Shown here in pieces: positions 7,953 through 49,266 of a stretch of DNA of 64,000 nucleotides. This stretch comes from Candidatus Aphodovivens avistercoris. Lineage in GTDB: Bacteria; Actinomycetota; Coriobacteriia; Coriobacteriales; Eggerthellaceae. The stretch covers positions 1 to 64,000 of the forward strand of contig DVIW01000012.1 in NCBI GenBank assembly GCA_018710945.1, written 5' to 3'. Every line of letters starts with the position of its first letter. Position 1 is the first letter of the stretch. A program made the translations under genes and the position numbers. Below the pieces are notes generated by a model. It was not told where the DNA came from and did no database searches. It saw only the letters and a program-made list of their open reading frames with translations.

Positions 7953-9878
7953 CTAACGACGTTCGGGCGCTTCGGAGGAAAGGAAGGCGCCCATTGCGTA
8001 GCGCAGCACGTCGGAACGGTTGACCGTGCCCACCACGCGCCCGTCGCGCAGCACCGGGACCTTCTTCAACTTGCGCTGCGCCAGAAGTTCGCACGCCTCG
8101 CGCAGCGTCGCGCCTTCGTCAAGCGCCACCAGCTTGGCGGTGGCCACGTCGGAGACGGGCAGCTCCACCGTCTCGCGCAGGCGCTCGTCGAAGCTTTGGC
8201 TGTTCGCCACTTCGATAAGCGCATAGGCGCTGCTCACGGCGGCATGTTTGTCCGCCAAGCAGCGCATCGCATCGCCATCGGAGATGAACCCTACGCCGCG
8301 CCCGCGCTCGTCCACCACTGGCAAGCCGCCCACCTTCAGATCCACGAACGCACGCATGGCCTCGCCCGCCTTCGCTGCAGCGGAGATGACGTAGGGGTCG
8401 GTCTCCATGATGGCGGAAAGCAAAGGGGCGCCAGGCTCCGCCTGAACAGCCGCGCCGGCCGCAGCCTCCGCGCGCACCGCGGCTCCTGCACGCTGCGCGC
8501 GCTCCCAGCGGCGCGCGGCGACCGTGTAGGCCGACGCGACGCCGAAGCCCACAGCAGCCACGGCAGCCGCCACGCCGATGGCAACCGCGAACCCCTGCGC
8601 CGCGCCTGCAGCCGCATCGGCGCCACCGGCCGCGGCACCCTGTTGCACCGCCGACATGATGCCGATGTACAACGACGGCCCAATGCAAGCTGCCACCTGC
8701 ACGAACGTGGTGGAAAGCGCCACGCCGAAGGGGTTTTGCGCCGGCGGCAGCGTGCGGAAGCCCGCCGTCTGCGACGGCGAGAACACCATGCCCACGCCCG
8801 CATACGCCAGAAGCGCGCCGGCGAACGCAAGGGGAAGCGACAGCGAGGCGCTGGTGGCGGCCAGCACCGCCAGGCCCGCCAGGATGACGGCGAAGCCCGC
8901 CGGCAAAAGCGGCCAAGCCCCGAAGCGGTCCATCACGCGCCCGCTGAAAAGCGAGGTGGCGGCGTTGGCCAGAACCGGCACGAGGATGATGACGCCCGAC
9001 GCGAACGCCGTGAGCCCCAGCGCCCCCTCGAAGTACAGCGGCAGCAGCACGCTGAGCGAGAACGTGGTCATCATGGCGACCATCGCCAGGATGAGCGTGG
9101 GCCAGAACAGGAGGGAGCGACACGGCGACAGCTCGATGAGCGGATGCGCGCAGCGCAGCTGCCGCACGATGAACGCCGCCACGGCGACGGCCGCCACCGC
9201 CAGCGCAGCTCCCGCCGCAACCGGCAGGGCGGACAGCTCCGCCAACCCAAACGACAGCCCGAACAGCGCCACAGCGGACAAAGCGACCGACGGTGCGTCC
9301 AGATGCGCCTCGCTGGTGGGCACGTTGCGAATAAGGAACGCTCCCGCCACCGCCAGCACCGCCATCGCGGCCACCGGCACGACGAAGATGCTGCGCCACC
9401 CCAGCCCCGTCACCAGCGCGCCACACGCCACCGGCGCCAGCGCCGGCCCGAAGGTGATCATGCAGCTGCCGATGGACAGGTAGGCGCCCATCTTGTTCTT
9501 CGGCACCACCGCCAGGATGGTGTTCATCATAAGCGGGATGAAGATGCCCGTGCCCACGGCCTGCACCAAGCGCGCCGCCAGCAGAAACGCGAAGTTGAAG
9601 GAGAGCAGCCCCATGGCCGAGCCCGCCAGGCTCAGCCCCGCCGCGCAGAAGAACAGCGTCCGCAGCTTGAAGCGGCGGTAGAGGAACGCCATGCACGTCA
9701 CCACCACCGTCGCCACGATCATGTAGCCGGTCACCAGCCACTGGGCCGTCACCGAATCGACCCCGAACTCGCCCATCACCGCCATGAGCGCCATGTTCAC
9801 CAGGTTCTCGTTGAATCCCGCCATGAACGCGCCGCCGTACAGGACGGCAAGCGGCGCGACGAAGCTTCCACCTTGCAT
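7953..9878 (-). CDS. MFS transporter fused to a C-terminal CBS-domain pair
   Basis: 641 aa. Residues 1 to about 455 form a multi-helix major facilitator of the drug:H+ antiporter-2 type (many hydrophobic helices, loop MNTILAVVPKNKMGAYLS after the first helices). After a hydrophilic Ala/Arg linker, residues about 487-635 form two CBS domains (DPYVISAAAKAGEAMRAFVD and GLPVVDERGRGVGFISDGD, then KKVPVLRDGRVVGTVNRSDVL). CBS pairs bind adenosyl ligands and gate other transporters such as ClC and MgtE. A fusion to an MFS exporter is uncommon and suggests ligand-dependent control. The start ATG 9878 follows GGAAGAGGGG. The prophage attachment site lies 145 bp upstream. Confidence 0.88.
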   Translation of the reverse strand: MQGGSFVAPLAVLYGGAFMAGFNENLVNMALMAVMGEFGVDSVTAQWLVTGYMIVATVVVTCMAFLYRRFKLRTLFFCAAGLSLAGSAMGLLSFNFAFLLAARLVQAVGTGIFIPLMMNTILAVVPKNKMGAYLSIGSCMITFGPALAPVACGALVTGLGWRSIFVVPVAAMAVLAVAGAFLIRNVPTSEAHLDAPSVALSAVALFGLSFGLAELSALPVAAGAALAVAAVAVAAFIVRQLRCAHPLIELSPCRSLLFWPTLILAMVAMMTTFSLSVLLPLYFEGALGLTAFASGVIILVPVLANAATSLFSGRVMDRFGAWPLLPAGFAVILAGLAVLAATSASLSLPLAFAGALLAYAGVGMVFSPSQTAGFRTLPPAQNPFGVALSTTFVQVAACIGPSLYIGIMSAVQQGAAAGGADAAAGAAQGFAVAIGVAAAVAAVGFGVASAYTVAARRWERAQRAGAAVRAEAAAGAAVQAEPGAPLLSAIMETDPYVISAAAKAGEAMRAFVDLKVGGLPVVDERGRGVGFISDGDAMRCLADKHAAVSSAYALIEVANSQSFDERLRETVELPVSDVATAKLVALDEGATLREACELLAQRKLKKVPVLRDGRVVGTVNRSDVLRYAMGAFLSSEAPERR

Positions 9879-10022
9879 GGAAATGCCCCTCTTCCTTCTT
9901 CCCACGTATGAGCGCATGGATGCGGCGCGAACGCGCCCGCAAGCAGCCCGGCGGCGCGTCCGCCGCCGGGTGCGACTGCATTCTGAGCCGCTCATGGTAG
10001 CGGAAACCCGCCGCCCGCATAA

Positions 10023-10038
10023 GCGTTTCTTTTGTGAA
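10023..10038. repeat. attL core of the prophage
   Basis: GCGTTTCTTTTGTGAA, identical to 47615-47630. The two copies bracket a complete phage genome, and this copy lies 46 bp from the 3' end of the integrase gene, the usual place of an attachment core. It lies in intergenic DNA, not in a tRNA gene. Confidence 0.88.
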
Positions 10039-10083: not shown

Positions 10084-11223
10084 CTATCTGACCCGAGAAG
10101 ACGCGACTGCGGAGGCCACGGCGGACACCAGATCGTCCACGCCCGGGCGCAGGTAATGGCGGCCAGTGACGGTGGGGATCACATGCCCCATGAGGATCTC
10201 CAGAACGTCGGGCTCGACTCCCCAGTCGAACTGCGCGAAGGTGCGCCAGCTGTTGCGAAGGTTGGCGAACGGGACGCCCTCGCGCCCCATCGCCGAACGC
10301 CAGCGGAACAGGAGCCTCCCGCGGGACATGGGCAGCCCGTCCCCGCGGTCGGCGAGCCACTCCACGCCGGCGGCGATGCGCTCCTCGGCGATCTCCAGCA
10401 GGCGCGTCCCATACGGCTCGGGGATCACCAGCGTCCGCTCGCTCTGCCTGTTCTTGAGGTCGCCATCCGGCAGCGGCAGGTCTCCCTTGTCGGCCATCCG
10501 CCGCACGATGGGCACGATGGCGCAGGCGATCCCGTGGGACTCAGCCCTGCCGACCTCCGACGCCCTGACCCCCAGCGATTCGCCCGTGCGGGCTCCGCCG
10601 AAGCACGCCAGGATGTAGGGAGCCTCCACGGCCTCGCCTCTTAGGCGGCCCAGCACCTTCTCCGCCTCGGCAAGCCCGTAGACGTCTGAGCGCCGCACGT
10701 GCGTCTTGCGCGTCGGCATTTCGTAGGGCAGGCGCATCTTGTTGACTGGGATCGCCTCGAAGCGCACCGCGAAGTCGAGCACCTTGCGCAGCACGACGAC
10801 GGCGTGGGCCGCCGCGCCGGCAGACAGGCCCAGCAGCCATTCCTGCACCTCGGCGGGCTGGATGGAATCGACGGGCACCCTCCCCCACCTCGGCTCGACG
10901 GCTTTGGCCCACGCGGACGCGTAGGCGCGATGCGTGCCCTCCTTGGCTTTCCCTTCGGCCACACGGCGCTCCATCCACGGCTCGAACCACATCGCGTAGG
11001 CCTTGCCGACGGTGGGCACGGGCCTGTCGCCGCCGTCGGCGTGCTCCACCTGCAGCCGGGACAGCTCGAGATCCGCTTCGCGGTAGGTGCCGCGGAACGT
11101 GCGGGAGCGGCGCTTGCGCCCCTGCGGCGTGTTCTCGACCCAGCGCAGCACGTAGCGCCGCCCGGGGTCCACCTCGGTGATCGAGCCCCACGCGCGCCTG
11201 CGCTTCCTCCGTTTTCGTGGCAT
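10084..11223 (-). CDS. int: phage integrase (tyrosine recombinase)
   Basis: 379 aa. The N-terminal basic segment (PRKRRKRRR) and AP2-like fold (about 10-60) are arm-binding, then a SAM-like core-binding domain (about 70-165) and the catalytic domain. Catalytic residues visible: Arg212 (GARTGES), Lys257, Arg323 (NLRNSW), His347 (MGH) and Tyr357 (GRHYL). The His that normally follows Arg323 is Asn324, and the first His of HxxR is Ala320. Adjacent to attL, so this is the enzyme that integrates the prophage; a second recombinase at 44417-45301 has a different context. Confidence 0.93.
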   Translation of the reverse strand: MPRKRRKRRRAWGSITEVDPGRRYVLRWVENTPQGRKRRSRTFRGTYREADLELSRLQVEHADGGDRPVPTVGKAYAMWFEPWMERRVAEGKAKEGTHRAYASAWAKAVEPRWGRVPVDSIQPAEVQEWLLGLSAGAAAHAVVVLRKVLDFAVRFEAIPVNKMRLPYEMPTRKTHVRRSDVYGLAEAEKVLGRLRGEAVEAPYILACFGGARTGESLGVRASEVGRAESHGIACAIVPIVRRMADKGDLPLPDGDLKNRQSERTLVIPEPYGTRLLEIAEERIAAGVEWLADRGDGLPMSRGRLLFRWRSAMGREGVPFANLRNSWRTFAQFDWGVEPDVLEILMGHVIPTVTGRHYLRPGVDDLVSAVASAVASSRVR

Positions 11224-36084: not shown

Positions 36085-36673
36085 GAGGCGCAACGGCAGG
36101 CTCGTGGCCGACGTGGAGGGCCACGAGGCGTACAGCGATGCCGTCGCGGCGCTCAGGCTGCTTGAGATCACCGGCGAAGAGGCGGCCCCAGCCGACAAGA
36201 CGTGGGTTGCCTGGCGAGTCGTGTTCGTCGATGCGGAATCGGCTTCCAAGGACGGGCCGGGGCTTCTCGCCCGCGCCGCGTGGGAGCTGTACGGCATCGA
36301 TCTGGACGGCTCGCACGCATCGGAGTGCGGTGGGAAGCGCGTGATCGACTGGGAGGCCGACGCGCAGCGGATCGCGGCGAGCGTGCGGCAGGTGTACGGG
36401 GTCACCTGGGAGCAGTTCGCGCGCGAGACGGCGTTCAGGGACGCCTGCGCGATGATCGGGATGCTGCCGCGCGATACGCCCATGGGGACGGCCATCCACT
36501 ACCGGACGGCGAAAGCCCCCAGGTTCAACGGCAAGAACGGAGAGCAGGTGGCGGCGTTCAAGCGGGCGCAGAGGGCGTTCGCCATCGACGGAGGGGGAGA
36601 CCCCGCCAAGGCGTCGAACGACGCGATGGCGGACTTCGCGGCATCGATGATGAGGGCGGTGGGAAGTGTCTGA
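36062..36673 (+). CDS. Gp15-like tail protein / second chaperone
   Basis: 203 aa, TTG start with GGAG 8 bp upstream inside the previous gene. Contains WELYGIDLDGSHASECGGKR and VIDWEADAQRIAASVRQVYG. The bacteriophage Gp15-like family sits in this place before tape-measure genes. It overlaps the tape-measure start by 8 bp. Confidence 0.72.
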   Translation: MRLTEPIRRRNGRLVADVEGHEAYSDAVAALRLLEITGEEAAPADKTWVAWRVVFVDAESASKDGPGLLARAAWELYGIDLDGSHASECGGKRVIDWEADAQRIAASVRQVYGVTWEQFARETAFRDACAMIGMLPRDTPMGTAIHYRTAKAPRFNGKNGEQVAAFKRAQRAFAIDGGGDPAKASNDAMADFAASMMRAVGSV

Positions 36674-39600
36674 CGGTAGCGTCACCATCGAAGCGATCCT
36701 CGACGCATCGGGCGTCGAGCGCGGCGCCAAGCGCATAGAGGGCGCGCTTGAGGGCATCGGCACGAGGCCGTTCGACGATCTGGCCGACGGCGCCGGCAAA
36801 GCGTCCGACGCCCTGGGCGAAGAGGCCGAGAAGGCCTCCAAAGCGGGCGACGAGACGGAGAAGGCGGGCGAGAAGTCCCGCAAGTCCTCCGCTGGCCACG
36901 ACAAGCTCAAGGACAGCGCGGAGAAGGCGGGAACCGCCCTGCAGGTGGGCCTTGCCGGAGCCGCCGTAGCCGCCGGAGCGGCGGTTTTCGCGGCAGCAGC
37001 CGACTACGAGGGCGCCCAGAGCCGCATCCAGGCCGCTCTGGGCGTGTCCGCGGAAGAGGCTGGGCGGTTTCGCGACATCGGGGCGTCGCTGTACGAAGAG
37101 GGCTGGGGGAACAGCCTTGACCAGGTGACCGACGCGCTGATCCAGACCAAGGAGACCATCCGCGACATCGACGAGACCGGCCTGCAGAAGGTCACCGAGA
37201 ACGCGCTGGCACTGGAGAAGGTGTTCGGCGCGGACGTGAACGAGACGATACGCGGCACGAACGCCCTGATGGAGGGATTCGGCCTCACCGCCGAAGAGGC
37301 ATCCGACCTCATGGCCGCCGGCATGCAGCGGGGGTTGAACTACACCGACGAGCTGGGCGACAACCTCTCCGAGTACGCCGGGCGTTGGGGCGATGCCGGG
37401 ATGACCGCATCGCAGTACTTCTCGCTTTTGGAAGCCGGAACCGCGAACGGGGCCTACAACCTCGACAAGGTAGGCGACTTCCTGAACGAGTTCCTGACCA
37501 GCCTTTCCGATGGAAGAATGGAAGAGAACATCGGGCGGCTGTCCGAGGGCACCCAGGAGGTGTTCGAGAACTTCAAGGCAGGAAAGGCCACCGCCGAGGG
37601 CGTGCTGAACGCCGTCATAGGCGATCTGGGCAGCATGACCGACGAGACGGAGCGGGCGAGCATCGCCAGCGACCTGTGGTCGAGCCTGGGCGAGGACAAC
37701 GCCATGAGCATGATCCTCGCCATGGGCAACGTCGATGACACGTTCGGCGACGTTGCGGGGTCGTCCGAGCAGGTTGCCGCGTCAATGGAGCAGTCTTTCG
37801 CCCAGAAGGCCCAGGCAGCCGTGCGCACCCTGGCCGGGTCGTTGGAAGGCCTCGGAGACCCCATGCTCAACATAGCCGAGTACGCCGCCGAGCTGGTGAC
37901 GGCGTTCGCGGAGTGGTTCGGGAGCCTCAGCGAAGGCGAGCAGCGGGCAGTGGTGACGTTCGCGGCGATAGCCGCAGCCGCCGTGCCCGTTGCCAAGGGC
38001 GTCAACGCCGTGAAAGACGCCGCCAAGGGGGCCGGAGGCATCCTGCAGGCTGCGTCCGGCGCGTTCCAGGCGTTCGCCGAGGCCGCAGGGCTGGCGGGCG
38101 ACGGCGTTGAGGACGCCGGGAAGAAATCAAGCAAGGCCAAGGGCAAGTTCAGCGGGCTGGTTTCCGCCGTCAACCCAATGACGGCCATGTTCGGCGTGCT
38201 GGCGGGCGCTGCGGTCTACCTGGGCGTGTCGTACCTTGAGGCTGCGGAGGACGCCGCCGAGTTGGACAAGGCCACCAACGGGCTGCGCGACGCGGTTTCC
38301 GGCGCTGGGGCCGCTTCGCAGGGGGCCGTTTCGGGCGTGGGCGCGTTTGGGGGCGCGGCGGCAAGCTCGGCGAAGTCGGTTGACGAGCTGCGCGAATCGC
38401 AGGCCGCGTGGGTTGACGACCTCAACGCCCGCCAAGCCGACCTCAACGCCGCGAACGGCACGCTCGACGCGTACATGGCCGCCATCGAAGACCTTGCGGG
38501 CAGAACCGACCTGTCGGCCACCGAGCAGGCCAAGCTGAAGGCCGCCGTCGATGCCGTGAACGACGCCTGCGGCACGACCTACGCCGTGGCGCAGGACGCG
38601 GGCGGGGCGTACCAGGTCATGGCCGACGGGGCGGCGGTGGCGACCGACGACATAAGCCGGCTCGTCGAGGCCCAGAAGATGCAGGCCAAGCTCGACGTGT
38701 ACCAGGACGACTACGCCGAGGCAATGCAGCAGGAGGCCGACGCGGCGGCCACGCTTGCCGAAGCCAAGCAGAAGCAGGCTGCGGCGCAGCAGAAGGTCAA
38801 CGACGCCCTTGCTGCCGGATGGACGCCGGACATGATGGCGCAGTACGACTACGAGCTAGCCCAGGCGAACGCGAACCTGGACGAGGCCCAGCAGCTCTAC
38901 GACGGGGCCGCCGGCGCCCTGTCTGGCTACGAGGAGCAGATGGCCCTCGCGCAGATGGCGCTGGAGGGGATGGACGCGGGATACGCCTCGTTCATCAGCA
39001 ACTCGTCGCTGCTGACCTCCGCGCTCATGGGCAACGGCCAGTCGCTCACCAGCTTTAGGGATGCGCTTGAGGCCACGGGAGTTTCCACCGAGGCCCTTGC
39101 AAGCCTTTCCGACGAGCAGCTGACGGAGCTTGCCAACAGCTACGACGGCACCATCAACTCGATCTCCGACCTGCTCTCCGAATACGACGAGGGCCTGGCG
39201 GGACACGCCGCGTCGGCCATGGAAACGATAGACGGCGCATTCGGGTATTCCACCGACCAGCTCTACGCCTTGGCGGAGCAGTTCGGCGTCCAGGGGGACG
39301 CGGCCATGGCGGCCTACGCCGCCGCCATCCAGAACGGCACGGAACCGGCCATAGCCGCCCTGTCTGTAACCACGGGCGCGAACGCGCAGCAATTGCAGGA
39401 CGTGGCGACGCAGGCGGGAATCAAGGGCAGCGAGGCCATGGCCGCCTACGCGACGGCCATCCAGAACGGTTACGAGCCTGCTTTCGCGGCGCTTGCGACG
39501 GTGACCGGGGCCAACGCCCAGCAGCTGCAGGATGCGGCTGCCCAGGCGGGCGTGAGCGGCGACCAGGCCATGAGCAACTACACCACGGCCATAAACGCGG

Positions 39601-40331
39601 GCTACAGCCCCACCGTGGCGGCTGCTGCGGCCATCAAGGGCATCACGGTTGACCAGCTGTCCCAGGCGGCTGCAGAGGCCGGGTACACGGGAGCCGACGC
39701 GGTTGAGCGGTACGCCGCCGGCATCATAGGCAAGAGCGGCACCGCGGAAAGCGCGGGCGAGGCGGTTGCCGGCGAGGCGAAATCCGGCCTCGAGTCAAAG
39801 AACGCGAGTGCGGCCGAATCCGGCTCGCACTTGGTGCAGAACTTCAAATCGGGCATGGAGTCGATGGCAGCCGTGGCGTACAACGCCGCTGCGGGAATCG
39901 CGTCGACAATCGCGTCCGCCCTGCAGTTCTCGGTCCCCGAGAAGGGTCCGTGGTCCGGTGCGGAGCGCGGCGGCGAGCGTTCGGGCGAGCACCTCGTCGA
40001 GAACTTCGCGCGCGGCATCGTCAAAGCAGCGCCAGCCATCGAAGAGGCGTCGCTGTTCGCCGCGTCCGAGGCCCAGGCCCCGTTCTCCCAACCCGCGGGC
40101 CTGGCGAACGACAAGGAGGCGTGGGTGCTTTGCGACCTCCCCTCCCCCGCCCCAGCGCAGAGCGGGGCGTCGTCGGACGGGCTTGCCGAGGCCTTGGCGG
40201 CCGCCATCGGCGAGCGGATGAAGGTCAAAGGCGACACGGTGTACAACTTCTACCAGCCGGTCGAATCGCCCGACGAGATCGCCAGGGCGATCAGGCTGAA
40301 AGAGAGGTACGGATTGGCGGCGAGGTCATGA
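36666..40331 (+). CDS. tail tape measure protein
   Basis: 1221 aa, GTG start. A coiled-coil-rich N terminus is followed by the tape-measure core (YEGAQSRIQAALGVSAEEAG, TNALMEGFGLTAEEASDLMA), hydrophobic segments around 435-530, long helices and a 44-residue repeat array (about 872-1020). The C-terminal LQFSVPEKGPWSGAERGGE is typical of tape-measure ends. Its length sets the tail length, roughly 180 nm if 0.15 nm per residue applies. Confidence 0.92.
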   Translation: MSDGSVTIEAILDASGVERGAKRIEGALEGIGTRPFDDLADGAGKASDALGEEAEKASKAGDETEKAGEKSRKSSAGHDKLKDSAEKAGTALQVGLAGAAVAAGAAVFAAAADYEGAQSRIQAALGVSAEEAGRFRDIGASLYEEGWGNSLDQVTDALIQTKETIRDIDETGLQKVTENALALEKVFGADVNETIRGTNALMEGFGLTAEEASDLMAAGMQRGLNYTDELGDNLSEYAGRWGDAGMTASQYFSLLEAGTANGAYNLDKVGDFLNEFLTSLSDGRMEENIGRLSEGTQEVFENFKAGKATAEGVLNAVIGDLGSMTDETERASIASDLWSSLGEDNAMSMILAMGNVDDTFGDVAGSSEQVAASMEQSFAQKAQAAVRTLAGSLEGLGDPMLNIAEYAAELVTAFAEWFGSLSEGEQRAVVTFAAIAAAAVPVAKGVNAVKDAAKGAGGILQAASGAFQAFAEAAGLAGDGVEDAGKKSSKAKGKFSGLVSAVNPMTAMFGVLAGAAVYLGVSYLEAAEDAAELDKATNGLRDAVSGAGAASQGAVSGVGAFGGAAASSAKSVDELRESQAAWVDDLNARQADLNAANGTLDAYMAAIEDLAGRTDLSATEQAKLKAAVDAVNDACGTTYAVAQDAGGAYQVMADGAAVATDDISRLVEAQKMQAKLDVYQDDYAEAMQQEADAAATLAEAKQKQAAAQQKVNDALAAGWTPDMMAQYDYELAQANANLDEAQQLYDGAAGALSGYEEQMALAQMALEGMDAGYASFISNSSLLTSALMGNGQSLTSFRDALEATGVSTEALASLSDEQLTELANSYDGTINSISDLLSEYDEGLAGHAASAMETIDGAFGYSTDQLYALAEQFGVQGDAAMAAYAAAIQNGTEPAIAALSVTTGANAQQLQDVATQAGIKGSEAMAAYATAIQNGYEPAFAALATVTGANAQQLQDAAAQAGVSGDQAMSNYTTAINAGYSPTVAAAAAIKGITVDQLSQAAAEAGYTGADAVERYAAGIIGKSGTAESAGEAVAGEAKSGLESKNASAAESGSHLVQNFKSGMESMAAVAYNAAAGIASTIASALQFSVPEKGPWSGAERGGERSGEHLVENFARGIVKAAPAIEEASLFAASEAQAPFSQPAGLANDKEAWVLCDLPSPAPAQSGASSDGLAEALAAAIGERMKVKGDTVYNFYQPVESPDEIARAIRLKERYGLAARS
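39279..39725 (+). repeat. 132-bp coding repeats in the tape measure gene
   Basis: About 3.4 copies of a 44-residue unit built on G-x-x-G-x-x-AM-x-x-Y-x-x-AI-x-x-G-x-x-P-x-x-AA and QQLQDxA. The first two are nearly identical at protein level and later copies diverge. Gain or loss of whole units would keep the frame and change tail length. Confidence 0.75.
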
Positions 40332-42343: not shown

Positions 42344-43282
42344 ATGGCAAAAGTCACATCGATCATAGACGTGTACCCCATCGATTCCGACTTCAAGAAG
42401 GACGAGAGCGGGGGTTTCATCCTTGACGAGCACGGCTTCGTGATCCCTGACAGGGGCTCGAACGCCGACGCGCTGCGCGACGTCATGAAGACGTTCTTCT
42501 CCAGCGGCGTGTTCGCCGACAGAGGCGACGAGCTGGCGGTCATCTCTTCCGGCGGAACCTGGAAAGTTGGAACCGGCATCGCGATGGCCGACGGCCTGCG
42601 CATCCCCGTGGAAGAGCCGGCCGAGGTGATAGGCCAGGAAGAGATCGGGGCGGGCGAGTACGCCTACATCTGCATAGCCGGCAGGTTCGAGACGCAGCTC
42701 CGAGACGGCGGCATCTATCCGGTGGTCACGAGCTCGCCAGCGTACGAGCCCGTGCGCGACGGATCGACCTACGAGCTTGTGCTGGCGCGCATCGACTGGC
42801 GCGGAACCATGACCGACTACCGCCTCGACCCGTCCATGTGCGGCGTCGCCGCCCCGTTCGAGAGCATCGACACCGATTCGTTCATGCTGGAGCTGTACAC
42901 GGCGGTCAGCCAGTTCAACCTCAACGTCGGTAAGGTGAGCAGCCTGCCGAGCGGCAGCACCCCCGAGGTCGTCGTGCGCAAGCCGATCATGGCTGGCGGG
43001 GAGGTGTACATCGACTTCGGCATCCCCAGGGGCGCGCCCGGCGAGCCGGGTCAGAGCGCGCCGGGGCTGTACATACAGGAGGATAGGCCAACAGAGCCGT
43101 CCGAGGGGGCGGTGTGGATGGGGACGAATCCAGACACGCGCCAGATCGAGCAGATTGAGGTCTACGAGCTGAAGGGCACCTATCCGGACGAGTTCTACCC
43201 GGACGAAGCCTACCCCGACGGCACAATCAAATGGGTGCCCTACACCATCGACCCGTCCCTGATCACTGGAAGCCAATCGTAA
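42344..43282 (+). CDS. upper baseplate / fibre protein with a short collagen-like segment
   Basis: 312 aa. N-terminal domain (TSIIDVYPIDSDFKKDESGG), a central beta-rich part, a helix (about 183-205) and a Gly-x-Pro-like stretch (GIPRGAPGEPGQSAPG, about 225-242) as in trimeric fibres. The C terminus holds repeats of YPDE/FYPDEAYPDG. Likely carries the variable fibre encoded next. Confidence 0.72.
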   Translation: MAKVTSIIDVYPIDSDFKKDESGGFILDEHGFVIPDRGSNADALRDVMKTFFSSGVFADRGDELAVISSGGTWKVGTGIAMADGLRIPVEEPAEVIGQEEIGAGEYAYICIAGRFETQLRDGGIYPVVTSSPAYEPVRDGSTYELVLARIDWRGTMTDYRLDPSMCGVAAPFESIDTDSFMLELYTAVSQFNLNVGKVSSLPSGSTPEVVVRKPIMAGGEVYIDFGIPRGAPGEPGQSAPGLYIQEDRPTEPSEGAVWMGTNPDTRQIEQIEVYELKGTYPDEFYPDEAYPDGTIKWVPYTIDPSLITGSQS

Positions 43283-43295
43283 GGAGAATTGAAGA

Positions 43296-43820
43296 ATGGC
43301 GAAGCAGACCGAAATCGGCTACGAGGCCCCCATCGAGTACCAGCCCTACGACACGGGCGGCACCCTCGTCAGGGCGGCGCACCTCAACGCGATGAACGAG
43401 GGCATCGTGAACGCCTGCAACGCGATTGACGAGCTGCGCACCAAGCGCCTCGTCACCTACATGGTGCTGCAGGACGGCGAGACCGCCACGCAGGACGCCT
43501 ACGGCGAGGCGATCCTGGGGCCGTGCCTGATCCTCGACCTCGCCGAGCGCGCGACCTACTACGACAACGGCGAGGACGGCGAGGCGCACGAGCGCAACCT
43601 GATCACGTCCGGAGCCGACATCGACGCGCTCCGGGATTCCATATCCCGGTGCGTCACCGCATCGGCTGTGACGGCCATGGTGAAGACTGGCAGCAACCAT
43701 CCTATCGAGATCGTGGTTGAGGGTGATGACAGCAACGTGACGCTGTACGCTTCGAGCGCGGGCATCGGGCTGTGGGACAACACCACAAGCAGCGCAATCG
43801 GCTCCGTTGACTGGCAATAG
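43296..43820 (+). CDS. tail fibre with switchable C terminus (currently joined form)
   Basis: 174 aa. Residues 1-118 are the constant part (YQPYDTGGTLVRAAHLNAMN, AERATYYDNGEDGEAHERNL, ending ALRDSISR). Residues 119-174 are the joined cassette (beta-rich, ending SAIGSVDWQ). The codons for Asp-Ser-Ile-Ser-Arg contain the recombination core at 43636-43649. Behind the stop codon lie two further cassettes that would continue the same frame after recombination, giving 201- or 218-aa forms. Probably the tip that contacts the host surface. Confidence 0.85.
   Translation: MAKQTEIGYEAPIEYQPYDTGGTLVRAAHLNAMNEGIVNACNAIDELRTKRLVTYMVLQDGETATQDAYGEAILGPCLILDLAERATYYDNGEDGEAHERNLITSGADIDALRDSISRCVTASAVTAMVKTGSNHPIEIVVEGDDSNVTLYASSAGIGLWDNTTSSAIGSVDWQ
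43631..43649 (+). repeat. recombination site A in the fibre gene
   Basis: CCGGGAT-TCCAT-ATCCCGG: perfect 7-bp arms around a 5-bp centre, the layout of a tyrosine-recombinase core. The right 14 bp (ATTCCATATCCCGG) recur at site B, 12 of them at site C. Confidence 0.82.
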
Positions 43821-43821
43821 C

Positions 43822-43835
43822 ATTCCATATCCCGG
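43822..43835 (+). repeat. recombination site B
   Basis: ATTCCATATCCCGG, direct copy of the site A core, one base after the stop codon of the joined cassette. Its left arm (AATAGC) is not conserved. Confidence 0.8.
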
Positions 43836-44087
43836 ACTAAACTTCTTACGATTTCCGGGAGGGAAGTGGCGGCCAACAGCTATTCCGATTTCGTGTTCGA
43901 AACCGAGGATTTCCAGTCGGTTCTATTCGCGATTCCCAATGTGACGACCGCATCGGAATCGTCAAAATACGGACTGCTGTCGGTCTCCACGACGCAATGG
44001 GGTGCCGAAACGGTCACCGTCAGGCTGTACAACGGCTCGGACGTGCGCGTCATTCCTACCGTCCGCGTTCTCGTGGTCGGCAGGTAG
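43822..44087 (+). other. silent fibre cassette 2, same orientation
   Basis: From site B an open frame continues in the same phase as the fibre gene: TCC ATA TCC CGG ACT AAA and on to TAG at 44085-44087. After joining at site A it would add 83 residues (TKLLTISGREVAANSYSDFV at the start, ending VRVLVVGR). A GTG at 43866 with GGGAGG could allow a free 73-aa product, but the site phase suggests it is a spare C terminus. Confidence 0.8.
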
Positions 44088-44095
44088 CGCCGCCC

Positions 44096-44412
44096 CTATT
44101 CGCCCGCTACGTAGACGAGGCGCACCCAGCCGCTTTCGCCGACGTTGGACGTTCCCGTGGCCCAGACGGCCCCTGCCTGGGGGTAGAACCTCACGTTGCT
44201 GCCCGGCAGGCAGAAGTACGGAAGCTCCTCGTATGGAGCCGGCAGATCGGGGAACTCGAACTGGAGCGCGTTGCCGGGGCTCTTGGCCGATGTGCAGTCG
44301 GCGTAGAACTGCAGGATCACCATTCCGCCAGATCGCACCGGGCTTATGAACTGGTAATCGTGCGTAGCCGATGACGCGTCTCCGATCTCAGCGAACGTCT
44401 GGGATATGGAAT
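44096..44412 (-). other. silent fibre cassette 3, inverted
   Basis: Read from site C on the minus strand: TCC ATA TCC CAG ACG TTC, open to TAG at 44096-44098. It would add 101 residues (QTFAEIGDASSATHDYQF, GGMVILQFYADCTSAKSPGN, ending WVRLVYVAGE). It converges on cassette 2 with only 8 bp between the stop codons. No own start codon or ribosome site fits the whole frame, as expected for a cassette that must be joined to be expressed. Confidence 0.82.
44401..44412 (-). repeat. recombination site C, inverted
   Basis: The minus strand reads ATTCCATATCCC followed by AG, so it faces sites A and B. It lies 4 bp beyond the stop codon of the recombinase gene. Confidence 0.82.
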
Positions 44413-44416
44413 ACCC

Positions 44417-45301
44417 TCACGCCGACCGCTGCAGATGCGCCGCCCACGCCCGCTGCGCCTGGACGCACACGCTCTTGCGCGGCACGATGTAGTGCTCGTA
44501 TGCCGTGCCTATCTCTGTGTGACCCAGCATCATCGCCACCGTCTCTATGCCCACGCCCGCCTCTATGGCGATGGTGGCCCAGCTGTGCCGCAGGTTGGTC
44601 ATGGAGACGTGCGGCAGGCCGTGCGAGCGGCACCACGACCTTATCCGCCTCGCCGTGGCGGTTGGGGACAGCGGGCAGACCAGATCGGACTTGCGTCGGC
44701 CCTTGGCGAGCTGGCGAAGGCGGCGCAGCGCAAAGGATGGGAGCCACAGGCTGCGGTCACTGCGGTCGGTCTTTGGCGGCACCACCACCGTCCCCGACCG
44801 CACGTCCTGGCGGCTCTTGGACACGCGTACCTCGCCGGTCTTGAGGTTGACGTCCCCCCACGTGAGCGCACACGACTCGCCGCGCCGAAGCCCGAGCGTT
44901 AGCGAGCAGATAGCCGCCGCCTCGGCCTCGCATCCCCAGAGGCCGCGCAGGTAGTCGCGCGCCTGGGAGGCGTCTAGTACCTGCGGATGGTAGGCGGGCT
45001 TGCGCGGCAGCTCGATGCCGGCCGTGGTGGGATCGTAGACACGCAGCCCCAGCCTGCGGATGGCCCAGCGGATGACCTGGCGCAGGGTCTTGTAGGCCTT
45101 TTCCGCCGCTCCCGGAAGCTCGAACGATGCCACCCAATCCTGGACGGAGTCCGGATCGATCTCTTCCAAGGCCATGCCGCCCCAGCGGGGCAGCACATGG
45201 AGGCGAAGGGCACTTGCGTAGCCCTCCACGGTGCTCTCGCGGCGCGTGCGGCGCTTGTCGGTCAGGTACAGATCTGCGATCTCGGCGATGGTCATGGCCA
45301 T
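44417..45301 (-). CDS. tyrosine recombinase of the fibre-switching cassette
   Basis: 294 aa. N-terminal SAM-like domain (about 5-95) and catalytic domain with Arg139, Lys177, Arg238, His239, His261 and Tyr271 (TAYEHYIVP), all present except a Thr at the first His of HxxR. It lacks the basic arm-binding N terminus of the integrase at 10084-11223, as simple inversion enzymes do. It lies in the middle of the tail/lysis region, opposite to its neighbours, touching site C. Most likely role: inversion among sites A, B and C, comparable in principle to the Rci shufflon enzyme. A second integrase from a nested element is the alternative. Confidence 0.87.
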   Translation of the reverse strand: MAMTIAEIADLYLTDKRRTRRESTVEGYASALRLHVLPRWGGMALEEIDPDSVQDWVASFELPGAAEKAYKTLRQVIRWAIRRLGLRVYDPTTAGIELPRKPAYHPQVLDASQARDYLRGLWGCEAEAAAICSLTLGLRRGESCALTWGDVNLKTGEVRVSKSRQDVRSGTVVVPPKTDRSDRSLWLPSFALRRLRQLAKGRRKSDLVCPLSPTATARRIRSWCRSHGLPHVSMTNLRHSWATIAIEAGVGIETVAMMLGHTEIGTAYEHYIVPRKSVCVQAQRAWAAHLQRSA

Positions 45302-45433: not shown

Positions 45434-45805
45434 ATGGGTCTCGAATCCCCAGAAATCGGCCTGCTCGCCGTCACGGTCGCCTTCATGCTGCTGGATATGG
45501 TGACGGGCATCGCCAAGGGCGCCAAATCGGGCGCGCTTGACTCGAAGGTCATGAGGGAGGGCCTGTGGCACAAAGCGGGCTTCATCGGCCTGATGGCGCT
45601 CGCCTACGCCCTGCAGTTCGCCGCCAGCCTCGCAGATCTCGGGATCGACGTGCCGGCTATCGGCGCGGTATGCGTGTTCGTCATCCTGACCGAGGCCGTC
45701 AGCATCGCCGAGAACCTGTGCGCGCTCAACCCGTCCATCGCGTCCAGCCCGCTTGGCTCGGCGCTCGCCGGCCACGGCTCGTCCAATGCTTCAAGCGGCG
45801 ATTAG
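45434..45805 (+). CDS. holin (phage_holin_4-like)
   Basis: 123 aa with three hydrophobic helices. The motif LLDMVTGIAKGAKSGALDSK followed by GLWHKAGFIGLMALAYALQF is characteristic of the toxin-secretion/phage-lysis holin family. It makes the membrane lesion that releases the lysins. Overlaps the next gene by 20 bp. Confidence 0.9.
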   Translation: MGLESPEIGLLAVTVAFMLLDMVTGIAKGAKSGALDSKVMREGLWHKAGFIGLMALAYALQFAASLADLGIDVPAIGAVCVFVILTEAVSIAENLCALNPSIASSPLGSALAGHGSSNASSGD

Positions 45806-46379: not shown

Positions 46380-47435
46380 ATGGCCAAGTTCATCATCGAC
46401 GTGTCGGAGCACCAGGGCTCCATCGACTGGGAGGCGGTCAAGCCGCACATCGACGGCGCTATCATCCGCTGCGGGTACGGCAACGACGATGCCAGCCAGG
46501 ACGACAAGCAATGGGCGCGCAACGTCAGCGAGTGCGAGCGATTGGGCATCCCGTTCGGCGTGTACCTTTACAGCTACGCCACGGACCCCGGCATGGCGCG
46601 CAGCGAGGCGCAGCACGCCCTCCGACTGATAGCGGGCCGCAAGCTGCAGTACCCCGTGTACTTCGACTCCGAGCAGCCAGGGACGGAGGGCGTCGCTCGG
46701 GCGTGCGCCGAGGCGTTCGGCGACGTCATCGAAGCGGCTGGCTATTGGTGCGGGGTGTACGCGTCGCGCAGCTGGTTCCAGTCCTACATCAACCTCGACC
46801 GGTTCACCAAATGGATCGCGTCGTGGGGAAGCTCGGACGCCGGCATGGGGTGCGACATGTGGCAGTACTCCTCCGACGGCTCCATCGCGGGCATCTCGGG
46901 GCGCGTTGACTGCAACTGGTGCTACCGCGACTTCCCGGCGGAGATCGGCGGGGGCTCGCCGCAGGCCCCGGCGGGCGGCGGCAAGTCGGTCGAGCAGCTG
47001 GCCCAGGAGGTCATCCAGGGCCTCCACGGGAACGGGGACGAACGCAAGGCGTCCCTCGGCTCCATGTACGACGCCGTGCAGGCGCGCGTGAACGAGCTTC
47101 TGGGGGTTTCCGGCGGCTCCTCCCCTTCCGGCACCACCTACGTCGTGCAGAGCGGCGACACGCTCTCCGGCATCGGCGCGCGCTTCGGGGTGGATTACGG
47201 CGCCATCGCGTCCGCCAACGGGATCGCCGACCCCGATCTTATCTACGCCGGGCAGGTGCTGACGATCCCCGACGGCTCCGGGTCTGCATCAGGATCCTCC
47301 ACCTACATCGTGCAGGCGGGCGACTGCCTCAGCGTGATCGGGGACAAGCTTGGCATCGACTGGACGGCAATCGCCGCCAACAACGGGATCGGAGCGCCCT
47401 ACACCATCTACCCGGGGCAGGTCCTGTACGTCTAG
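46380..47435 (+). CDS. endolysin: GH25 muramidase, Cpl-7-like motif, two LysM domains
   Basis: 351 aa, starting right after the previous stop. GH25 domain 1-200 with Asp7 (IIDVSEHQG) and Asp96/Glu98 (YFDSEQ). A Cpl-7/CW_7-type binding motif at about 208-243 (LAQEVIQGLHGNGDERKA). LysM repeats at about 251-295 and 305-351 (YVVQSGDTLSGIGARFGV, YIVQAGDCLSVIGDKLGI). Cleaves the glycan backbone. No signal peptide, so export depends on the holin. Confidence 0.95.
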   Translation: MAKFIIDVSEHQGSIDWEAVKPHIDGAIIRCGYGNDDASQDDKQWARNVSECERLGIPFGVYLYSYATDPGMARSEAQHALRLIAGRKLQYPVYFDSEQPGTEGVARACAEAFGDVIEAAGYWCGVYASRSWFQSYINLDRFTKWIASWGSSDAGMGCDMWQYSSDGSIAGISGRVDCNWCYRDFPAEIGGGSPQAPAGGGKSVEQLAQEVIQGLHGNGDERKASLGSMYDAVQARVNELLGVSGGSSPSGTTYVVQSGDTLSGIGARFGVDYGAIASANGIADPDLIYAGQVLTIPDGSGSASGSSTYIVQAGDCLSVIGDKLGIDWTAIAANNGIGAPYTIYPGQVLYV

Positions 47436-47614: not shown

Positions 47615-47630
47615 GCGTTTCTTTTGTGAA
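47615..47630. repeat. attR core of the prophage
   Basis: GCGTTTCTTTTGTGAA, identical to attL at 10023-10038. Host DNA resumes at 47631. Between the terminator and this site the DNA is AT-rich and holds the inverted copy of the arm-like 12-mer (47569-47580). Confidence 0.88.
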
Positions 47631-47671
47631 CGGAGCGCGCCGTCGTTCGCTTCGCCGTCCACCATTATATA

Positions 47672-47683
47672 GAACAGTTGTTC
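47672..47683 (+). promoter_or_regulatory. LexA (SOS) box
   Basis: GAACAGTTGTTC fits the Gram-positive/actinobacterial SOS consensus GAAC-N4-GTTC exactly. It lies 47 bp before the polymerase ATG; a TACTAT just downstream (47692-47697) could be the -10. The DNA-damage role of the gene supports the call. Confidence 0.82.
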
Positions 47684-47730
47684 GTTTTTTGGTACTATGG
47701 ACGGGAAGGAGAAAGGGGGCGGGCTTCGGA

Positions 47731-49266
47731 ATGCAACGAGAGGCAGGCAAGACGCGCGGCGGCGCGGCGGCGGAACGCGGCGCGGAGGCACCGGCATGCG
47801 GCGGCACCCAAACGCAGGCCGAAGCCTCGTGGGCCGACAGGATGCGCATGCCGGCGGAGAACGGCGGGCGGGCGTACCTGTGCATCGACCTGAAAAGCTT
47901 CTACGCCTCGGTGGAGTGCGTCGCGCACGGGCTGGACCCGCTTTCCACCAACCTGGTGGTGGCCGATCCCTCGCGCGGCCGCACCACCATCTGCCTGGCC
48001 GTCTCGCCCGCCTTGAAAGGGCGCGGCGTGCGCAACCGCTGCCGCCTCTTCGAGATACCCGAGGGCATCGACTACGTGACGGCCCGGCCGCGCATGCGCC
48101 GCTACATGGAGGTGTCGGCGCGCATCTACGCCATCTACCTGCGCTACCTCTCGCCCGACGACATCCACGTGTACTCCATCGACGAGTGCTTCATCGACAT
48201 CACGCCCTACCTGGAGCTTTACGGGAAAACGCCCCGCCAGCTGGCGCGCATGCTGATAGACGAGGTGCTGGCCGGAACGGGCATCACCGCCACCGCCGGC
48301 ATCGGCACGAACCTGTTTCTGGCGAAGGTGGCGCTCGACATCGCCGCAAAGCACGCCGACGGCGGCATCGGCGTGCTGGACGAGGCCGCGTTCAAGCGCA
48401 CCATCTGGCGCCACCGCCCCATCACCGACGTGTGGGGCATCGGGCCGGGCATCGCGCGGCGCCTGGCGAAGTACGGCGCGCACGACCTGCGCGACGTGGC
48501 CCGCATGAACGAGCGCACCCTCTACCGCGAGTTCGGGAAGAACGCCGAGTTCCTCATCGACCACGCCTGGGGGCAGGAGCCCTGCACCATCGCCGAGATA
48601 CACGCCTACCGGCCCAAGGGCCATTCCCTGGTGAACGGCCAGGTGCTGCCAGGCGACTACGCCGCCGCCGACGCGCGCATGGTGCTGCGCGAGATGGTGG
48701 ACGCCAGCGTGCTGGACCTGCTGCAGCGGGGGGTGGCGGCAGGGCGCATCGGGCTGCACCTGGGCTACGCGCGCCCGAACGCGAAAGCGGGCGCCGTGCG
48801 CGAGACCGCGGAGGGCGGCCTGCAGGCGGCCGACCTGACGGCGGCGGGCGCGGTGCGCAGCAGGCGGGGCGAAAGCGCGGTGGTGTTCGAGGGCGAGCAC
48901 GGCAAGCGCTTCGCCGACGGGCGCTTCGGGGCGGGCGCGGGCGCCGTCGAGCGCAAGCTGCCCCACCCCACGAACTCGTTCAAGCAGCTCGCCGCGGCGT
49001 TCGACGCGCTGTTCGACGAGACAGCCGACGCATCGCGCCCCATCCGCCGCATCAGCATCGGGTTCTCCGACCTCATCCCCGAAGGGCTTGCCACACCCAG
49101 CCTGTTCGAGGATGCGGAGGGGCAGCAAACCGAGCGGCGGGTGCAGGACGCCGTGTTGGCCGTGAAGCGGAAGTTCGGGAAGAACGCGCTGCTGAAGGGC
49201 ACCAGCCTCAAAGAGAAGGCCACGGCGCGCGAGCGCAACGAGCAGATAGGAGGCCACCATGCCTGA
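47731..49266 (+). CDS. Y-family translesion DNA polymerase (UmuC/DinB-like)
   Basis: 511 aa. After a 45-residue low-complexity N terminus come the catalytic motifs YLCIDLKSFYASVE (Asp53) and YSIDECFIDIT (Asp151, Glu152), a fingers segment SRGRTTICLAVSPALKGRG, the helix-hairpin-helix thumb (VWGIGPGIARRLAKYG) and a little-finger domain interrupted by an Ala/Gly/Arg-rich insert (about 375-420). Copies damaged DNA during the SOS response, as the LexA box indicates. A start at a later ATG is possible. Confidence 0.92.
   Translation: MQREAGKTRGGAAAERGAEAPACGGTQTQAEASWADRMRMPAENGGRAYLCIDLKSFYASVECVAHGLDPLSTNLVVADPSRGRTTICLAVSPALKGRGVRNRCRLFEIPEGIDYVTARPRMRRYMEVSARIYAIYLRYLSPDDIHVYSIDECFIDITPYLELYGKTPRQLARMLIDEVLAGTGITATAGIGTNLFLAKVALDIAAKHADGGIGVLDEAAFKRTIWRHRPITDVWGIGPGIARRLAKYGAHDLRDVARMNERTLYREFGKNAEFLIDHAWGQEPCTIAEIHAYRPKGHSLVNGQVLPGDYAAADARMVLREMVDASVLDLLQRGVAAGRIGLHLGYARPNAKAGAVRETAEGGLQAADLTAAGAVRSRRGESAVVFEGEHGKRFADGRFGAGAGAVERKLPHPTNSFKQLAAAFDALFDETADASRPIRRISIGFSDLIPEGLATPSLFEDAEGQQTERRVQDAVLAVKRKFGKNALLKGTSLKEKATARERNEQIGGHHA

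Follow-up and report, generated by a model that had tools for sequence, protein, structure and literature searches.

The fibre locus and its prophage

The window, by which we mean the whole stretch of DNA analysed, comprises 64,000 nt of Candidatus Aphodovivens avistercoris contig DVIW01000012.1 (positions 1–64,000, forward strand; assembly GCA_018710945.1). It carries an integrated tailed phage of about 37.6 kb in a host of the family Eggerthellaceae. Genes for the terminase, portal and capsid precede the locus described here, a repressor-like gene and a separate integrase occupy the opposite prophage end, and the variable fibre gene is flanked by the tail genes and the lysis genes. The relevant features are as follows.

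10023–10038 (+): candidate attL, 16-bp direct repeat GCGTTTCTTTTGTGAA, exact copy at 47615–47630
10084–11223 (−): prophage integrase, tyrosine recombinase of 379 aa, apart from the shufflon enzyme in the tree
36666–40331 (+): tail tape measure protein (PHROG tape measure and Pfam PhageMin_Tail matches)
42344–43282 (+): probable protein of the tail tip or fibre region, encoded just before the variable fibre gene (assigned from its position and from weak PHROG matches to head and minor tail proteins)
43296–43635 (+): constant N-terminal part (Rc) of the putative variable fibre/receptor-binding protein (ORF 43296–43820)
43636–43647 (+): rix site 1, inside the fibre gene, core ATTCCATATCCC
43648–43820 (+): cassette A, in the expressed position in the assembled order; open frame in fibre phase; resembles both cassettes of an Olsenella locus (L107)
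43822–43833 (+): rix site 2, just past the stop codon of the fibre gene and in the same direction as rix1, core ATTCCATATCCC
43834–44087 (+): silent cassette B, in-phase open frame, 88 residues from the core
44096–44400 (−): silent cassette C, convergent with B, in-phase open frame, 105 residues from the core
44401–44412 (−): rix site 3, in inverted orientation, separated by 4 bp from the stop codon of the recombinase gene, core ATTCCATATCCC
44417–45301 (−): rin, tyrosine recombinase of 294 aa without an N-terminal arm-binding domain (Pfam Phage_integrase and Phage_int_SAM_3; Rin clade)
45434–45805 (+): holin (Pfam Phage_holin_4_1, E 3e-16)
46380–47435 (+): endolysin (GH25, CW_7 and LysM domain matches)
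47615–47630 (+): candidate attR, 16-bp direct repeat, exact copy of 10023–10038

A joined (empty) att site was not found in two congeners, and we therefore infer the att sites from the 16-bp repeat at 10023 and 47615. By eye, the translation of the host gene beside the left prophage end (7953–9995, −) looks like a transporter-like membrane protein fused to CBS domains. At the right end the prophage adjoins a host Y-family DNA polymerase gene with IMS domains (47626–49266, +), whose listed ORF start is overlapped by the candidate attR. An Rfam search gave no match.

Three identical cores, each followed by an open frame in the fibre phase

The layout is that of a Rin shufflon: each silent cassette is preceded by a rix site, and rin flanks the far side, 4 bp from rix3. 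With its left flank GGG, rix1 forms the near-palindrome GGGAT-TCCAT-ATCCC, and rix2 starts one base past the fibre stop codon (43818–43820). The preliminary description had placed the core three times at these positions and in these orientations; this was confirmed, and the whole genome holds exactly three copies. No fourth copy of ATTCCATATCCC is present in the window, even allowing one mismatch, and none of 100 dinucleotide shuffles contained three matches (mean, 0.06). In a genome-wide pattern search, ATTCCNTATCCC occurred over the 2.45-Mb genome only at the three rix sites. The site is of the Rin type TTCCNTANCCC: its sequence here, TTCCATATCCC, has only three copies in 2.45 Mb. Although rix1 and rix2 have 14 bp in common, the left flanks of rix1, rix2 and rix3 differ (GGG, AGC and GGT, respectively), so that the part shared by all three sites is essentially the 12-bp core and the exchange must fall in it or at its edge.

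From the cores of rix1, rix2 and rix3, the frames in the fibre phase stay open for 61, 88 and 105 residues, counted from the codon spanning the core start, and the remaining two phases for 11/28, 40/6 and 22/8 residues. The 56, 83 and 101 residues reported earlier are the same frames counted from the core end, and the two counts agree within one residue. Cassettes B and C are indeed packed tail to tail, as first described, with 8 bp between their stops (44085–44087 and 44096–44098).

The three cassettes are very dissimilar to one another (pairwise identities 16/52, 8/30 and 19/83). Cassette B matches the C-terminal part of a tail-region protein encoded by another Eggerthellaceae genome (32% identity, E 1e-4), and cassette C weakly matches cassette 3 of an uncultured Enterorhabdus MAG locus (L037). 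Because each of the three resembles cassettes or a tail-region protein elsewhere, it is plausible that A, B and C are tips drawn from a shared pool. Position, the fibre-like N termini of relatives and these weak cassette similarities together suggest that the gene at 43296 encodes a fibre. The constant part has no relative in 138 genomes of Eggerthellaceae, a Pfam search with the cassettes and the constant part of this phage gave nothing significant, and single-sequence structure models of the fibre and of cassette C were uninformative (mean pLDDT 40 and 51, respectively).

The adjoining recombinase belongs to the Rin clade

The enzyme beside the cassettes had been called a tyrosine recombinase, and its match to Phage_integrase (PF00589, E 2e-15; catalytic domain at residues 135–272) bears this out; Phage_int_SAM_3 is matched from residue 4. 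The product is full-length and intact, and R139, K177, R238, H261 and Y271 are conserved. In a maximum-likelihood tree, in which support is weak at some of the deeper forks and the branches of two outgroup sequences are very long, the rix-linked recombinases cluster away from the integrase of this prophage and from recombinases without rix. The two enzymes of the prophage are 29% identical over residues 20–282 (E 6e-16), and the integrase at 10084–11223 gave no Pfam match at E 0.001. Judged by sequence, the shufflon enzyme is distinct from the prophage integrase.

General profiles name the shufflon enzyme only as an integrase, as would be expected if it were the prophage integrase or a remnant of it and the repeats were att relics or chance occurrences. 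However, the prophage has another integrase, at its left end and next to the 16-bp candidate att repeat, the rix sites lie inside the fibre gene and in phase, and the same arrangement recurs at about 30 loci; we give this explanation a negligible probability.

Three further recombinases (L043 to L045; 31–34% identical) lack rix repeats, and a tRNA-like sequence adjoins the end of the L043 gene. On these grounds all three were classed as ordinary integrases.

Rin shufflons are widespread in Coriobacteriia

Enzymes 46–64% identical to this recombinase are found in many Eggerthellaceae genomes; Rin homologues with the same layout are present in 15 of the 138 searched, its own genome counted. Finding relatives required an alignment of Rin proteins, and related enzymes also occur in Collinsella, in Olsenella-type genomes and on IMG/VR and GTDB contigs. 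Several loci from genome contigs and from IMG/VR duplicated loci already obtained from the genome search and were removed before counting. The same anatomy is seen beside Rin-clade recombinases at about 30 Coriobacteriia loci, all with a (GGG)ATTCCNTATCCC-like site. This phage itself has no close relative in IMG/VR, queried with the recombinase alone and with the fibre N terminus, or among phage records at the DNA level; with no close relative among the databases searched, a second order of cassettes A, B and C was not found.

De novo repeat searches beside the recombinase genes returned the same kind of site locus by locus. The commonest sequence is ATTCCGTATCCC; other loci have ATTCCTTATCCC, ATTCCCTATCCC, ATTCCAAATCCC, ATTCTGTATCCC, AATCCGTATCCC, ATTCGCTGTCCC, ATTGCTTGTCCC and more. 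All copies of the core in one locus have the same sequence. The sixth (centre) base of the core is A, C, G or T depending on the locus and is never mixed within one (L027 to L117), as would be expected if recombining partners have to agree in their overlap region. At the fibre-gene site the left flank is GGG in nearly all loci, which makes the site a near-palindrome, GGGAT-TCCNT-ATCCC; the left flanks of silent sites are looser. At 110 of 113 sites in distinct loci, at least 50 codons are open in the fibre phase (other two phases, 11 and 43), and a stop triplet falls within 9 nt around the left edge of the site at 84 of 86 silent sites. The constant parts of relatives, which gave no Pfam match, end in sequences that by eye are typical of tail fibres, such as HSHSASDMTSGTLSADRLPTVPVAHGGTGATTA.

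Loci carry 2 to 12 sites; in every locus that has both outer sites, these two are in inverted orientation to each other. The 12-site locus (L117; uncultured Coriobacteriia MAG, CATLBX010000001.1) has all its rix sites within 2.4 kb of rin and 11 of them in the same direction; direct repeats are thus evidently not lost quickly. Another locus (L094) has seven of eight sites in one direction. The 123 cassettes of the loci sampled fall into about 76 sequence clusters, and similar cassettes recur across different phages in different combinations.

Two Rin genes are present in one genome, that of Adlercreutzia muris DSM 29508 (L032 and L034, on contigs 14 and 10). Both contigs start about 115 bp past a site, and the cores of the two sites are identical, ATTCGCTGTCCC; with the same core, the two shufflons might cross-react.

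Related loci differ by inversion at rix

A comparison of related prophages for other cassette orders had been proposed as a check, and inversions were found in two sets of loci. A constant order, lacking alternative junctions in related genomes, would have spoken against the proposal and is thus contradicted. The same two-cassette segment lies in opposite orientations in Adlercreutzia caecimuris B7 (L035) and in two IMG/VR contigs (L088 and L093): it aligns on the opposite strand at 94.1% identity over 596 bp, with 567 bp between the cores in both, and the recombinase side and the fibre side remain collinear. Moreover, the cassette expressed in L081 is a silent, inverted cassette in L106, and the fibre-side homology stops and the cassette homology starts within the same 12–13 bp core. 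The differences in order between related loci are clean inversions.

Between L088 and L093 themselves, 2543 bp running from the fibre gene across three cassettes are 100% identical; the identity stops at the fourth rix core, and the recombinases on its far side share only 71% identity. Either phages exchanged DNA at rix, or the metagenome assembly is chimeric. A second metagenomic case is the uncultured Enterorhabdus MAG (L037/L115), where one 193-bp cassette is found in inverted copies at the two shufflon ends (99.5% identity), either because it was truly duplicated or because the assembly merged two inversion states.

Contigs end exactly at rix in three isolate genomes and one MAG. In Enterorhabdus sp. 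P55, the last core base is also the last base of contig C67, and C282 begins 3 nt past the core; C32 of the MAG (G074) starts 1 nt beyond it. The core lies at base 116 from the contig end in Enteroscipio rubneri C5 and C26 and in A. muris C14, and at base 115 in A. muris C10; an offset of 115–116 is that expected of a 127-mer assembly graph forking at the core. Such breaks suggest that several orders coexisted in culture.

By contrast with several of these relatives, the present locus shows a single order and is unbroken in its assembly (contig C47, 104 kb), and one order therefore dominated in this strain. This could mean that a Rin shufflon by descent has become locked, with enzyme or sites dead and fibre A always made. 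Yet the recombinase is intact with its catalytic residues conserved, the cores have one and the same sequence, and none of the three frames is interrupted. The assemblies of Parvibacter, Gordonibacter and A. caecimuris are likewise unbroken at the shufflon, so that an unbroken contig is ordinary. We consider a locked locus unlikely and expect that this copy is active.

A model for switching among three fibre tips

We conclude with high confidence that the locus is a Rin-type shufflon that can give the prophage fibre alternative tips A, B or C. The proposal of three tips switched by site-specific inversion, made in the preliminary description, is supported by the anatomy, the phase of the frames, the membership of the enzyme in the Rin clade and the inversions among relatives. 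Rin would recombine the 12-bp rix cores. The present order is Rc joined to A, then B in the forward direction, then C in the reverse direction and rin. Recombination of rix1 with rix3 would invert 43636–44412, joining the 113-residue fibre N terminus to C and silencing A; recombination of rix2 with rix3 would turn B and C round, after which rix1 and rix3 would yield Rc joined to B. The expected fibres are 174 aa with A (the state in the assembly), 201 aa with B and 218 aa with C, and all three tips would be read in the same phase across the joint D-S-I-S-R/Q.

Deletion of A by rix1 and rix2, which are direct repeats, is formally possible. On a wider scale, the recombinase could chiefly delete or capture cassettes by direct-repeat excision and integration, in the manner of an integron, with inversion incidental; besides the orientation of rix1 and rix2, the recurrence of similar cassettes in different combinations in different phages and the identity of L088 and L093 up to a rix core would fit this. 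However, the long direct arrays noted above persist (11 of 12 sites in L117, seven of eight in L094), which argues against frequent resolution of direct sites. Loci that have both outer sites always show this pair inverted, and the order differences seen are clean inversions. A chiefly deleting or capturing enzyme is thus, in our estimate, very unlikely, and inversion probably dominates over deletion in the shufflon described here.

This shufflon probably serves to diversify the receptor-binding tip across phage progeny and lysogens. A more speculative proposal, which we think rather improbable as a whole, is that Coriobacteriia phages share a large tip pool and that the centre base of rix acts as an address. 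Under it, the centre base would stop recombination between the shufflons of one cell or of a co-infecting phage, and the shared rix arms would still let related enzymes bind.

The system is not new in kind, Rin shufflons being known from Bifidobacterium and Eggerthella lenta prophages. What is new is a member with three cassettes, the wide spread of the family within Coriobacteriia and a centre base that is specific to each locus. Rin shufflons are common across gut Coriobacteriia (Eggerthellaceae, Collinsella and Olsenella-type genomes), beyond the two groups in which they were known. Their tips may change host range and are candidate host-range determinants in phages that infect gut bacteria metabolising drugs and bile acids.

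Comparison with known systems

In the R64 shufflon, the tyrosine recombinase Rci switches C-terminal cassettes of an adhesin by inversion at short asymmetric sites. By description, the present locus resembles it in using a tyrosine recombinase on the C-terminal cassettes of a surface adhesin. The target in R64 is pilV, encoding the pilus protein PilV, on a conjugative plasmid, whereas here it is a prophage fibre between tail and lysis genes. Gin, Cin and Min (of Mu, P1 and p15B) invert the tip segments of phage fibres; they are serine recombinases, whereas the enzyme here is a tyrosine recombinase (Phage_integrase). The parallels drawn earlier were with Gin, Cin and Rci; the closest system, Rin, had been missed (PMC6109161, PMC8778435). 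A literature search for "Rin shufflon" found it described for Bifidobacterium and E. lenta prophages only, plus a passing mention.

In 2018, a Rin shufflon was reported in the Bifidobacterium prophages Bb423phi1, Bl30698phi1 and Bl157phi1, with the site TTCCCTAACCC, inversions between prophages, and variant reads in virion and host DNA (PMC6109161). As here, an armless tyrosine recombinase adjoins the cassettes, one rix lies in the receptor-binding protein gene and a second, direct rix right after its stop, and the silent C-terminal cassettes are dissimilar (PMC6109161). The sites, TTCCCTAACCC and TTCCATATCCC, are alike at 9 of 11 positions. The Bifidobacterium shufflon has five tips, compared with three here, and another host class. 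It also has virion-read evidence (PMC6109161), whereas this prophage is known from assembled sequence alone. The enzymes of Bifidobacterium phage PMBT6 (41%) and of phage ctl617 are 41–42% identical to the present one, and TTCCGTAACCC-type sites lie beside both. How an armless tyrosine recombinase inverts without deleting between direct sites was a question of the 2018 paper (PMC6109161); it becomes testable because the about 30 loci define a site, GGGAT-TCCNT-ATCCC, with natural variants.

The Rin shufflon of E. lenta clade 1 prophages, reported in 2022 with the site TTCCGTAT, lies in the same bacterial family and has the same layout, with the integrase at the other prophage end (PMC8778435). 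Its cassettes encode H-type lectin domains, which were not detected in the cassettes here, and its constant gene is described as much larger (PMC8778435). The 8-bp cores are TTCCGTAT in E. lenta and TTCCATAT here, with a centre base of G there and A in the present phage.
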